From Vulcanimicrobiota bacterium (GTDB taxonomy: Bacteria; Vulcanimicrobiota; Vulcanimicrobiia; Vulcanimicrobiales; Vulcanimicrobiaceae), in NCBI GenBank assembly GCA_003151115.1, contig PLWS01000003.1, positions 125,350-189,349 on the forward strand: a stretch of DNA of 64,000 bases, read 5' to 3'. Below the pieces are notes generated by a model that saw only the letters and a list, made by a program, of their open reading frames with translations, searched no databases and had not been told where the DNA came from. Numbering within the stretch: position 1 is the stretch's first letter; every line of letters starts with the position of its first letter. The position numbers and the translations under genes were made by a program. Shown piece after piece: positions 48,111 to 53,644 of the stretch.

Positions 48111-48695
48111 TTACCGGCCCCTGGGGTAGAGCACACCGGACGCGTTTGCTAGGGCCTTTTTTGCCGCCGGCTCGTCCAGCACGCCATAGCGCCCGGTGAT
48201 CGCGAGCAGCACGCCGCGCGTGCCGTCGGCCCACACGTATTCGAAACGCTTGAGGGTGTCGAAACCCGATCCCATGGTCAGCTCTTCCCAATAGGCCGGC
48301 ATTCCGTTGGTGAGTTTTGTAACCTCGTGCTTCTTGAAAAACACGTCGCCATTGTCACGCGCTTCGTTTTCGGAGACCATCTCGAAGCCGTCGAGAGTTC
48401 CGTCGTGATTTTCCATCGTGATCGTGATCGTGAGTTGTTCGCGTTTGCCCGGATTGGCAACCCATGCGGCCACTACCGTCGACTGATCGAACTGTGCCGG
48501 ATCGTGGGCCGCCAGCGGCAGGCGGTAGAATTCAGGCGGCGCCGTGAACGACATCGCGGGATCGTGGTACTCACTCGGAGACGGCGTCGGCGACGCTTCC
48601 GGCGTAGCCGGCGTGAAACGCTGCGCGAAGGTTTGCACCGGCGCGGTGAAAGCGCACATCAAGCAGAACGCTAATCCAAGAGCGAGGCGGTTCAC
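48111..48695 (-). CDS. Hypothetical secreted protein
   Basis: 194 aa with signal peptide. Confidence 0.6.
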   Translation of the reverse strand: MNRLALGLAFCLMCAFTAPVQTFAQRFTPATPEASPTPSPSEYHDPAMSFTAPPEFYRLPLAAHDPAQFDQSTVVAAWVANPGKREQLTITITMENHDGTLDGFEMVSENEARDNGDVFFKKHEVTKLTNGMPAYWEELTMGSGFDTLKRFEYVWADGTRGVLLAITGRYGVLDEPAAKKALANASGVLYPRGR

Positions 48696-49735
48696 TGCGA
48701 CTCCAAAACTCTGGCAAGGGCCGGCATCGAGATTTCGTAACGGTATCCCACGTTTCGATGATCGTCATCGAATTCTTCGTGGCGCACCTCTAGGCCGAGT
48801 TCGCGCATGCGCGACGCCATAACGCGCGCGCCCACATCCAGCCCGTACTCGTCTTTGCGGCCGCAGTCGATGTAACGCAAGCGCAGCCTCGCCAGTTCCG
48901 CTTTTTTCTCCAGGCACATCCGGGCCGGGTCGAACTGCAGCCACCGATCGAAGACGGCCCGATTCAGCTCACCGGTTTCGCGCTGCAGCGGCAGGTCCAG
49001 ATCGAAGGCCTTCGCACTGCGCGGCGAGTATGCGGCGGCATACCCGAGCATCTCGATCGTCGCGTATTCCGCGGGCTGCCGCTTGTTTAGCCCTTCAAAA
49101 TGAGCGACGAACGCTTCGATGTTCCAGCCGTGTTTTTCCAACGTCCGGTGAACCGGCGGAAACGAAATGGGATGCGCGTATTCGAAATAGGAGTCGCCGC
49201 TATGCGATGCAAAGGCGGCAAACGTTCCCGGGTATTGCATCGAAAGGTAGAGCGATCCAAAACCGCCCGACGATTTTCCGAAGACCGCGCGGCCGCCCTC
49301 GGCTGCGATCGTTCGATACGTCTTGTCGACGTGTCCGATCACGTCGCGAACCGTATAGGTCGCGTAATCGCCGTTGTGGATCGAGTTGACGTATTGCGAT
49401 CCGCCCAACCGCGTGAATCCGTCGACGATAACCAGTATCACCGGCGGCATGCGTTTCGCGGAAACGAGCCGATCGATCCATTGGACGACGTTGGTTTCCC
49501 ACGGGCGAGAACCGACGAGCGCGGCGGCGTCACCGGTATACCCGTGCAGGCAATAAAGCACCGGGTACCGGCGCGAGCCTTGCGCATCGTATCCCGGAGG
49601 CAAATACGCGACGACAGGCCTTTCGCTCGGGTCGCCGAGCGGATTGCCTTTGAGCGCCGCGCTCTCGAGGAACTCGACGCGGACGTCGCCCTCCAGCTGC
49701 ATTAGGCGCGCGAGCGGCGATTTCGTTTCGTTCAT
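48692..49735 (-). CDS. Esterase (esterase D/Fes-like alpha-beta hydrolase)
   Basis: VAYLPPGYDAQGSRRYPVLYCLHGYTGD...RAVFGKSSGGFGSLYLSM...HEEFDDDHRNVGYRY. Confidence 0.85.
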   Translation of the reverse strand: MNETKSPLARLMQLEGDVRVEFLESAALKGNPLGDPSERPVVAYLPPGYDAQGSRRYPVLYCLHGYTGDAAALVGSRPWETNVVQWIDRLVSAKRMPPVILVIVDGFTRLGGSQYVNSIHNGDYATYTVRDVIGHVDKTYRTIAAEGGRAVFGKSSGGFGSLYLSMQYPGTFAAFASHSGDSYFEYAHPISFPPVHRTLEKHGWNIEAFVAHFEGLNKRQPAEYATIEMLGYAAAYSPRSAKAFDLDLPLQRETGELNRAVFDRWLQFDPARMCLEKKAELARLRLRYIDCGRKDEYGLDVGARVMASRMRELGLEVRHEEFDDDHRNVGYRYEISMPALARVLESQ

Positions 49736-49789: not shown

Positions 49790-52700
49790 ATGATACGCGG
49801 CATCGGTCTGCGCGGCGCGATCGCCATCAACGTGATCACGATGGTCGGGATCGGTCCGCTCATCACGATACCGCTGGTTCTCGCGCAGTTAGCCGGACCG
49901 CTGGCATTGATCGGCTGGATCGCCGGTGCCGTCGTCGCACTCTGCGACGGATTGGTTTGGGCCGAACTTTCGTCGCGTTACCCCGGAAGCGGCGGCACGT
50001 ACGTGTATCTTCGCGAGGTATTCGGTCGCGAACGATGGGGACGTCTGCTTGCCTTTCTCTTTAACTGGCAGTTCTTGCTCTATGCGCCGTGCTTGCTCGC
50101 GACCGGCTACATCGGCTTTGCAAGCTACTTCGGTTACCTCGATCCTGCGGCGGCTTCACGGCCGTTTCAGATCGGGACCGCGGCGCTCGTCGGTGTCCTT
50201 ACAATAATCTTGCTCTACCGCCGCATCACCGCGGTCGCATCGATTGGATCGGCGCTCGCCGTTGCCGCAATTCTGACGCTGCTGGCCGTCACCGCAGCGG
50301 CATTTTGGCATTCCGAGATCCATCGCGCTTTTACTCTGCCGGCCCATGCGACTTTTGGGATCGGATTCTTGGCCGGTCTGGGCGGCGCGTTGTACATCAC
50401 GCTGTACGATTACGTCGGCTACAGCGACGCGGCGCTGCTGGGTGACGAGGTGAGAGAACCGCGGCGCACCATTCCTTTGGCGATCGTCTCATCAATCGCA
50501 ATCGTCGCGATCCTCTACGTCGCCTTACAGGTCGGCGTACTCGCGCACGGCGTTCCGGCCGGCAACCCGCAGTTCATCGCTTCAACGATCGTCGAACAGT
50601 CCTGGGGACCGGCGGCCGCAAAGGCCGTCACGGTGCTCATCCTCTTGACCGCGTTTGCATCAGTCTACGGAAATCTTGTCGGGTTCGCGCGCATTCCGTA
50701 CGCGGCTGCGCGCGACGGCGAATTCTTTCCGGCGTTCGCGCATCTCAACCAACGCGGGCAGTTTCCCGATGTTGCGCTCCTCGTTATCGGCGCAGCCTCC
50801 TTGGCCGCGTGCGTGCTTCCACTCGACCAGGTTCTTGCCGTCCTCACGGCGGGCATCGTCCTCATCCAAGGCGTAGCGCAAGTCGTCGCACTATTTGTCG
50901 CGCGCACGCGCGGCGCCGCGCCGTTTCGGATGTGGCTGTTTCCGCTTCCGGCGATCGTCGCGCTGGCCGGATGGCTTTACGCGTTCGCCTACACGGGCGC
51001 GTTCGCGATCGCGGTCGGCATCGGATGGCTTCTCGCCGGCGCGTGCGCCTATCTCGTCACGGCACGCGTACAACGCCGCTGGCCTTTTGCGGCAGCTCTT
51101 CTTCTCATATTATGCTGCATGCAAGCTTCTCCGGCGCACGCGGCGGCTTGGCCTGGAAGCGCGGTCGTGCAGCGGAACGGTTATCCCGTCTACACGGTGA
51201 ACGGCAAGCCGTTTTTCATTTATGGCGCCACGTTCTTCTACGAGCGAATTCCGCGCGCGCAGTGGGCGGCATCGCTGGCCCACTATCGCGCGCTCGGCAT
51301 CAATACGATCGATCTGTACGTGATGTGGAACTGGCACGAAGTTCGGGACGGTTCGTTCGATTTCACCGGGAGCTCGAATCCGCGCCGCGACCTCGCGGGC
51401 CTTTTCCGGCTCATCGACCGGCTAGGTTTCAAGGTCGTTCTCCGGCCGGGTCCGGTTATTCGCAACGAATGGCGCAACGGCGGCTACCCCGCCTGGCTGC
51501 TAAAACGGCCGGAGTACGATATGCCGCTGCGCGACGTTTTGGAAGGCCGGTATCCCGCAACCGCGACGCTGCAAAACCAGCACTCCGACGATGCCGCGGC
51601 CGAATGGATGCGCAACGCGACGCACATGCGTTATGCCGCGCGCTGGCTGCGGCATGTCTTGGAAGCTGCAGCGCCATGGCGGCAGGACGTCATCGCGATC
51701 GCGCTGGATGACGATCAGGGCGCTTATCTCGACAACCAAACGTGGCCCGCGCCGCACTTTCAACAGTACCTCGGGTATCTGGCATCGATCGTTCGCGGCA
51801 GCGTCGGATCGAGCGTGCCGTTGTTCATTAACACCTACGACATGAAAGTCACCGCGTCGGCGCCCGTTTGGGCCTGGGGCAATTGGTATCAGAGCGATGC
51901 ATACAGCATCGGCGAGCACGACCGCGCGCAGCTCGCATTCTCGACGGGCCTGATCGCAACGCAATCCCATTTGCCCGTGATGATGAGCGAGTTCCAAGCC
52001 GGCTGGCTGCAAGGCGCCGATGAAGCTTGGCCGCGGCCGGCCGATCCTTCGAACACTACGCTCGCACTCCATACGCTGCTGCAGCAGGGTATGCATGGCG
52101 TCGTTAACTTTCCGGTGCAAGACACGATGAATCCGGCCGGCTGGGAAGCGCCCTGGGCCAACCCGTTTTATTCTTGGGACGCGGCGCTCTCCGTGCAATT
52201 GACGCATCAAGGCCGCTGGCTGCCGACGCGTCGTTTCGGCGAGTTGGTTCATACCTTGGGTCCGTTGCTTGCTCAAATGCACGTGAAAGCCGACGCAGCC
52301 ATTGCTTACACCGCAAGCGCGTACGATCCGAGAAGCCTCACAAAAGACGATTTTTTCTCGATTGCCGCAAACACGATGGCGGCGCAGCGCGACTGTCGTA
52401 ACAGGCACATTACTTGCGCTTTGATCGACTTGCGATATGCACCCAGCGATCTACATCGTTATCCGGTGATCGTCATTCCGCCAGGTCCGGCTGGTCTTAC
52501 GTTCGTTCCCGCCATTAACCAAACACTTTCCGCTTATCGCTTGAACGGCGGTCAAATCGTGGCAGCTGCGGGGAGCGCGTCCATCTCCCATCCGGCGGCC
52601 GGCGGGATTCCCAATGCCGTCCTGATCGTCGATCCAACCGAACGCTTCGGGTTTCTCAGCATTGTGAATTACTCGAGCGTTCCCCAGCCGATCGTAAGTG

Positions 52701-53644
52701 CCCGGCTTTGGGCGGCAAACTTGCGCGCTACCGCCCCGACGCTAGTGGTTGCCGCGCGCGATGCGGCGCTCATTGCCGTCAACGTTCCGCAACATTTCAT
52801 GCCGAAAGTGCCGCCGTTGCCGGCGGACCCGTCGCCGATGGCGGGCGAACGAGTGCCCCTGCGGGGCGGCAGTTGGCTGATCGCACACGGAGATGACGTT
52901 TACCAAGACGGCTACCCGGCAACGATCTTGGAAAACTCCTGGGTGCGGCTGATCGTTTCTCCGTGCGCCGGCGCGCGCGCACTTGTACTGGAGGATAAAC
53001 GGTCCAAGGAAAATCTTTTCTCGACCGCCGGCGGCTTTCGCGATGCGTGGTCGCCGCAGTTGCCCGCATCCGAACGCGACTACATCGGGCGGTACACTCA
53101 CCCGATTGCAGCCGGCACGTTCAATCGCTGCTACGCCATCCACAATGCATCTGCGGCGCAGGCGCGTTTCACCTATTTTGCTCCCGACGCGCCGGGCAAC
53201 GGAGCAGCCTTTGATAAGACGATATCCGTCAATCGCTTTGTGCCCGTGATTGTCGTGAAATACGTCGCTCATTTTAAGGCACCGTCCGGGGAGTTGCCGC
53301 AGCAGCTGACGTCATTTGCCGCAACGCCGCAAACGAAGATCGAGCAGTTGAAAAATGCCTACGGTCTCTACCAGCCCGAGAAAAAACGAATCGTCATGGT
53401 TGCGTGGCCCGCCTCGGACGTAAAGACGCATACCCTCGCGCTACGCGCAACGGACGCGCTGCTCACGCTCACGTTCTTTCAAAACGGAACTGGCGATCTG
53501 CGCTATGGTATTAACCGGGTGCTATCAGAAAATCAAGCGCAGGCGGGCCTTGCGAAGTTCGCGAAATTGTCGCGACTGCCGACAAGGGGAAGTGGCGGAA
53601 CGGTAGACGCAGCCGCCTCAAAAGCGGCCGGGCAACCCCCGTGA
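49790..53644 (+). CDS. APC-family permease fused to GH35-type beta-galactosidase-like domain
   Basis: APC N-half (GPLITIPLVLAQLAGPLALIGWIAGAVVALCDGLVWAELSSRYPGSGGTYVYLREVFG) then signal-like RRWPFAAALLLILCCMQASPAHA and GH35 YGATFFYERIPRAQW...GINTIDLYVMWNWHEVRDGSFDF...VLRPGPVIRNEWRNGGYPAWLL; uninterrupted 1284 aa. Confidence 0.87.
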   Translation: MIRGIGLRGAIAINVITMVGIGPLITIPLVLAQLAGPLALIGWIAGAVVALCDGLVWAELSSRYPGSGGTYVYLREVFGRERWGRLLAFLFNWQFLLYAPCLLATGYIGFASYFGYLDPAAASRPFQIGTAALVGVLTIILLYRRITAVASIGSALAVAAILTLLAVTAAAFWHSEIHRAFTLPAHATFGIGFLAGLGGALYITLYDYVGYSDAALLGDEVREPRRTIPLAIVSSIAIVAILYVALQVGVLAHGVPAGNPQFIASTIVEQSWGPAAAKAVTVLILLTAFASVYGNLVGFARIPYAAARDGEFFPAFAHLNQRGQFPDVALLVIGAASLAACVLPLDQVLAVLTAGIVLIQGVAQVVALFVARTRGAAPFRMWLFPLPAIVALAGWLYAFAYTGAFAIAVGIGWLLAGACAYLVTARVQRRWPFAAALLLILCCMQASPAHAAAWPGSAVVQRNGYPVYTVNGKPFFIYGATFFYERIPRAQWAASLAHYRALGINTIDLYVMWNWHEVRDGSFDFTGSSNPRRDLAGLFRLIDRLGFKVVLRPGPVIRNEWRNGGYPAWLLKRPEYDMPLRDVLEGRYPATATLQNQHSDDAAAEWMRNATHMRYAARWLRHVLEAAAPWRQDVIAIALDDDQGAYLDNQTWPAPHFQQYLGYLASIVRGSVGSSVPLFINTYDMKVTASAPVWAWGNWYQSDAYSIGEHDRAQLAFSTGLIATQSHLPVMMSEFQAGWLQGADEAWPRPADPSNTTLALHTLLQQGMHGVVNFPVQDTMNPAGWEAPWANPFYSWDAALSVQLTHQGRWLPTRRFGELVHTLGPLLAQMHVKADAAIAYTASAYDPRSLTKDDFFSIAANTMAAQRDCRNRHITCALIDLRYAPSDLHRYPVIVIPPGPAGLTFVPAINQTLSAYRLNGGQIVAAAGSASISHPAAGGIPNAVLIVDPTERFGFLSIVNYSSVPQPIVSARLWAANLRATAPTLVVAARDAALIAVNVPQHFMPKVPPLPADPSPMAGERVPLRGGSWLIAHGDDVYQDGYPATILENSWVRLIVSPCAGARALVLEDKRSKENLFSTAGGFRDAWSPQLPASERDYIGRYTHPIAAGTFNRCYAIHNASAAQARFTYFAPDAPGNGAAFDKTISVNRFVPVIVVKYVAHFKAPSGELPQQLTSFAATPQTKIEQLKNAYGLYQPEKKRIVMVAWPASDVKTHTLALRATDALLTLTFFQNGTGDLRYGINRVLSENQAQAGLAKFAKLSRLPTRGSGGTVDAAASKAAGQPP

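Follow-up and report, generated by a model that had tools for sequence, protein, structure and literature searches.

Transporters and secreted hydrolases are normally encoded by separate genes. The Bradyrhizobium cytochrome b/c1 polyprotein FbcH consists of a multi-transmembrane (TM) protein and, in the same frame, an exported domain preceded by an internal signal peptide; signal peptidase cuts it. The gene described here has the same layout as FbcH, but the proteins are unrelated. In the heteromeric amino acid transporters, a GH13-like heavy chain (4F2hc or rBAT) is disulphide-linked to an SLC7 light chain of the LAT type; the heavy chain of LAT-4F2hc is N-in and has one TM segment and a glycosidase-like ectodomain (PMC8537225). 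Here, too, a glycosidase-fold ectodomain would be placed on a LAT-type permease via an N-in hydrophobic segment. The differences are that it is GH35-like instead of GH13-like, lies in the same polypeptide, is probably cleaved off, has a conserved catalytic face and is of independent origin.

The best match of the glycosidase (GH) half in both sequence and Foldseek searches was the exo-beta-glucosaminidase GlmA (PDB 5gsl, 5gsm, 6jow and 8oug). In TkGlmA, Asp178 binds the C2-NH2 of GlcN and D178N is inactive (PMC6566704), while Tyr53 and Glu103 are residues of the -1 subsite (PMC8861115). A further Foldseek relative is IaSGT, a GH35 beta-1,2-glucosyltransferase of Ignavibacterium. It has Asn where GlmA and the GH half have Asp, a Glu as acid/base, a predicted cytosolic location and no fusion (PMC8861115). 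The bacterial LAT-family carrier BasC (6f2g, 9h76) has the 12-helix APC fold in common with the permease half (23% identity in the structural alignment), but no fused enzyme, and its TM1 reads G-A-G-I-F as opposed to G-I-G-P-L. No precedent for an APC-GH35 protein was found in the literature, which is weak evidence of absence.

The window, i.e. the whole stretch of 64,000 nucleotides that was analysed, comes from a lineage of poorly known soil bacteria in an almost uncultured phylum. The fused gene (49790..53644, forward strand; 1284 aa plus stop) begins with ATG at 49790 and runs for 1284 codons without a stop to the stop codon ending at 53644, so that the continuous frame claimed in the sequence-only reading was confirmed. 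That reading had also placed an APC permease and a glycosidase in this single ORF. A Pfam search, run without any prior hint of the architecture, found both domains in one chain: AA_permease_2 at aa 10-400 (E 1.8e-34) and Glyco_hydro_35 at aa 470-577 (E 4.2e-32). The two weak points it had named were a frameshift or stop hidden near the junction and relatives that always keep the halves as separate genes; neither was found. Assemblies made independently contain the fused frame from end to end at 49-82% identity, which rules out an assembly error or a hidden stop, and about half of the family genomes are fused (see below). Within the genus, codon differences at the junction were mostly in position 3 (0.25/0.22/0.52 for positions 1/2/3), as expected for translated DNA, with a bias less sharp than in the conserved halves. 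The ORF is genuine, and no assembly error lies behind the fusion.

The fused architecture (1250-1500 aa) was found in ~52 of the 99 family genomes searched, spread over 21 genera, all belonging to a single family of Ca. Eremiobacterota/Vulcanimicrobiota, with calls based on open-frame length and the junction. All seven genomes of the window's genus carry it. In ~23 genomes of 11 genera, a permease of this subfamily stands alone, usually with a separate GH gene present as well, and three genomes were classed neither as fused nor as separate because of contig ends or frameshifts. The permease is single-copy per genome except in G059 (two fused copies) and G085 (two stand-alone copies), and no second, stand-alone copy was found in the fused genomes of the 99-genome search. 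The GH-half profile matched 88 of the 99 genomes, a few of them only as weak generic GH35 matches; elsewhere in the phylum it matched a single genome, again weakly and generically. GH without permease occurred in genus g25 and part of g12, and permease without GH in g16 and g18. The fusion is genuine and lineage-wide.

The permease half (aa 1-425; 49790..51064, forward strand) has 12 predicted helices with a broken TM1 in the AlphaFold model. Its AA_permease_2 score of 119.9 bits lies well above the Pfam gathering threshold of 27 bits and places it in the APC superfamily. PDB sequence matches were the xCT consensus, BasC and LAT1, and Foldseek matches were y+LAT1, BasC and LAT1 (E about 1e-13, TMt about 0.8). 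The half is a LAT-type APC carrier with y+LAT1, LAT1, xCT and bacterial BasC as its nearest solved relatives. The substrate motif G-S/A-G-I-F of amino acid carriers is absent from TM1; it is replaced by G-I-G-P-L, which is invariant in the fused set.

The GH half (aa 456-1284; 51155..53641, forward strand) is built from a TIM barrel, an alpha/beta domain and beta domains, as is GlmA. It scored 112.4 bits against Glyco_hydro_35 (gathering threshold 27 bits), and archaeal exo-beta-glucosaminidases ranked first in the sequence and fold searches. The 'GH35-type' label of the sequence-only reading thus stands as far as the Pfam family is concerned, but the nearest enzyme is GlmA and not a beta-galactosidase, and Asp occupies the acid/base position. 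Its 'full GH35-like catalytic region' holds for the start only: the strong match, like that to GlmA, fades past the first ~107 residues, and the remainder is a divergent GlmA-like architecture. With 120.5 bits, the half stays far below the cut-off of the GlmA family NF041127 (1500 bits). It also differs from GlmA in being fused to a permease and, by prediction, exported. By sequence, it is best described as a GH35 enzyme that has diverged, is confined to this lineage and comes closest to archaeal GlmA. A plain GH35 beta-galactosidase was rejected, as the Asn-Glu motif is absent and GlmA is nearer.

The TkGlmA equivalents were assigned by HMMER alignment to 5gsm. Since the active-site loops are of low model confidence, the catalytic assignments rest on alignment. 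Y510 (51317..51319) and E560 (51467..51469) correspond to TkGlmA Tyr53 and Glu103 of the -1 subsite and are invariant. In the pair D641-D642 (51710..51715), D641 is the equivalent of Asp178, also invariant, and D642 stands at the acid/base Glu179. The beta-4 motif of GH35, Q-x-E-N-E-[FY] (or D-E in GlmA), reads (A/Q)-L-D-D-D-(Q/E) in 70 of 70 homologues, meaning that the amine-binding Asp178 is kept and the acid/base Glu179 is Asp in all of them. A GlmA-like relative from another family has the canonical Q-V-C-N-E-I-G, and its A-E-F-Q aligns with the proposed beta-7 nucleophile E734 (51989..51991), which lies in S/A-E-F-Q and is invariant in 70/70. As an Asp at the acid/base position usually lowers activity, the enzyme may have weak or altered activity, or none. 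The segment D640-D642 (51707-51715) represents a natural Glu-to-Asp swap at the GH35 acid/base, invariant across the family. Towards its C-terminus, the GH half was far more variable than in the barrel: the within-genus amino acid difference was 0.385 for aa 801-1284 (52190-53641) and 0.131 for aa 461-800.

The junction (aa 426-451; 51065..51142, forward strand) was studied by comparing fused with separate genes, by a shuffle test for AxA motifs and in the model. The permease tail ends in RRWPF and is followed by a signal-peptide-like stretch, AAALLLILCCMQASPAHA, with an AxA motif (AHA, 51134-51142); a signal peptidase I site is predicted at A451|A452. Many unfused permeases stop soon past the W-P-F tail (..REWPFA.., ..ERWWPFAQSATP*), and unfused GHs open with their own Met and then a hydrophobic, signal-peptide-like segment. 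Judged from these sequences, the fused junction is a stand-alone permease tail (..RRWPFA) plus a stand-alone GH signal peptide. The sequence-only reading had seen a possible retained signal peptide here, and this is supported: the unfused relatives show both original ends, and the cleavage motif has been kept between the halves. AxA was present in 40 of 43 fused junctions, where shuffling of the linkers predicts 33.3 (p=0.002), with the reservation that the junctions are related and the shuffle ignores kinship. The excess is modest because alanine-rich segments often contain AxA by chance. Of the three junctions scored as lacking it, one (G048) reflects a script boundary error, and its sequence does show ARAQ. 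In the AlphaFold model, the 12 permease helices are followed by a short helix (431-442) and a low-confidence coil (441-452). This thirteenth helix, only ~12 residues long and ending in coil, is more like a signal peptide than a membrane anchor.

Our main reading, to which we give a probability of roughly 0.55, is that of an internally signalled polyprotein whose GH half reaches the periplasm and is probably released there, with both halves probably serving an amino-sugar pathway. The first 12 helices would form the LAT-type permease with both ends in the cytoplasm. The positive tail (RRWPF) and the thirteenth hydrophobic stretch would then re-enter the Sec channel, and the GlmA-like half would be carried across the inner membrane. 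Signal peptidase I would most likely cut after AHA-451 and free the enzyme into the periplasm. There, the glycosidase would trim terminal amino-sugar residues, and the permease would take up what is released, an amino sugar or a related sugar bearing an amine, to be phosphorylated and deaminated. An amino-sugar substrate is probable because the GlmA Asp that contacts the sugar amine is invariant and because a GlmS/NagB-II-like SIS isomerase or a GH20 is often found next to stand-alone permeases. In many genera, the gene keeps a transporter and a hydrolase in a single frame and carries its own export signal and a predicted cleavage signal. A bacterial membrane polyprotein can thereby be put to the test, amino sugars are suggested as the cargo of an APC carrier, and the unexplained glycosidase-fold ectodomains on animal amino acid transporters gain a parallel of separate origin.

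The sequence-only reading had offered two fates, tether or release. The alternative that survives best is the tether, with the thirteenth stretch staying uncut as an anchor. The GH half would then remain covalently on the periplasmic side, like 4F2hc or rBAT on SLC7 carriers, and would either feed its product to the transporter or stabilise it. We consider this possible but clearly less probable than release. The permease half resembles LAT carriers in both sequence and fold, the expected topology fits LAT-4F2hc (PMC8537225), the fusion has been retained across 21 genera, and the altered acid/base residue would suit a glycosidase fold that possibly serves as a scaffold. However, the AxA motifs are retained, which favours release over a tether as far as sequence can tell, the thirteenth helix is short in the model, and many relatives manage without a covalent link. 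Moreover, the catalytic-face residues including the proposed nucleophile are invariant, whereas the catalytic residues of the heavy chains are not conserved among all orthologues. This invariance also disfavours a pseudo-glycosidase scaffold as the main reading. A more specific proposal, a bacterial single-chain counterpart of LAT-4F2hc, would have the GH35-fold ectodomain permanently attached and handing amino sugars or other amines directly to the carrier, with an independent origin and the Asp acid/base. We regard it as unlikely, and rank it below a tether in general.

Still more doubtful is that the halves share no substrate, i.e. that the permease takes up common amino acids or amines while the GH works on a glycan that has nothing to do with them, so that being joined brings co-expression only. 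That the halves are separable and occur one without the other, and that solved LAT-type relatives carry amino acids and not sugars, would fit this and speak against our main reading. The surroundings of the fused gene fit it as well. In the window, a metB-like gene, a small protein and a divergent PF00756 esterase (48692..49735, reverse strand) are found on one side, then a small protein and aroA. The same flanks (metB, small protein, esterase, often aroA) recur at fused loci, and across the family the esterase is conserved next to both the fused gene and lone GH genes. No amino-sugar genes were found beside the fused locus, only the esterase and housekeeping genes. In unfused genomes, the GH alone occupies this metB/esterase/aroA site, and the permease lies elsewhere. 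It is the neighbourhood of the stand-alone permease that argues against unrelated substrates, together with the conserved amine-binding Asp of the GH half and the TM1 motif that deviates from the amino acid consensus. In six genomes of five genera (G002, G041, G065, G067, G074 and G085; loci L175, L178, L075, L191, L192 and L210), an SIS protein is encoded 6-35 bp upstream of the stand-alone permease on the same strand. The SIS protein has no glutaminase domain, and the best families of the two proteins examined were GlmS isomerase, NagB-II and GlmD, all below cut-off. A GH20 hexosaminidase adjoins the SIS gene in G041 and G042, and a ManA-like isomerase lies upstream of the stand-alone permease in G086 and G093. 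The pairing of SIS protein and LAT-type permease suggests an amino-sugar uptake operon. A close SIS homologue is absent from the fused genus g5, and no APC amino-sugar carrier was found in the literature, which is weak evidence of absence.

It is very improbable that a stop or frameshift was overlooked, or that translation from an internal start yields two proteins from one frame: GTG or ATG codons do lie near the junction in some fused genomes, but the repetition of the fusion in independent assemblies of 21 genera refutes an assembly error, no ATG, GTG or TTG codon precedes the junction hydrophobic stretch in the window's own genome, and a Shine-Dalgarno-like motif with a start codon was found at only 1 of 43 fused junctions, which lends an internal start no support and makes separate translation of the halves unlikely.

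The permease tree required four changes between the fused and separate states and the GH tree 11. In the outgroup-rooted permease tree, the stand-alone permeases fall inside the fused ones, with very long outgroup branches that make the root unsafe. The permease of G042, nested among fused ones, ends in ERWWPFAQSATP* and seems to be a remnant of fission.

The amino-sugar context, the LAT resemblance and the lineage-wide distribution go beyond what had been read from the window before. The genome of the window has its SIS orthologue on a different contig (locus L187, C6:316000-333000), near a ManA-like isomerase and an S13 carboxypeptidase and together with a PLP decarboxylase and an ABC permease; this is possibly a cluster for recycling cell-wall amino sugars.
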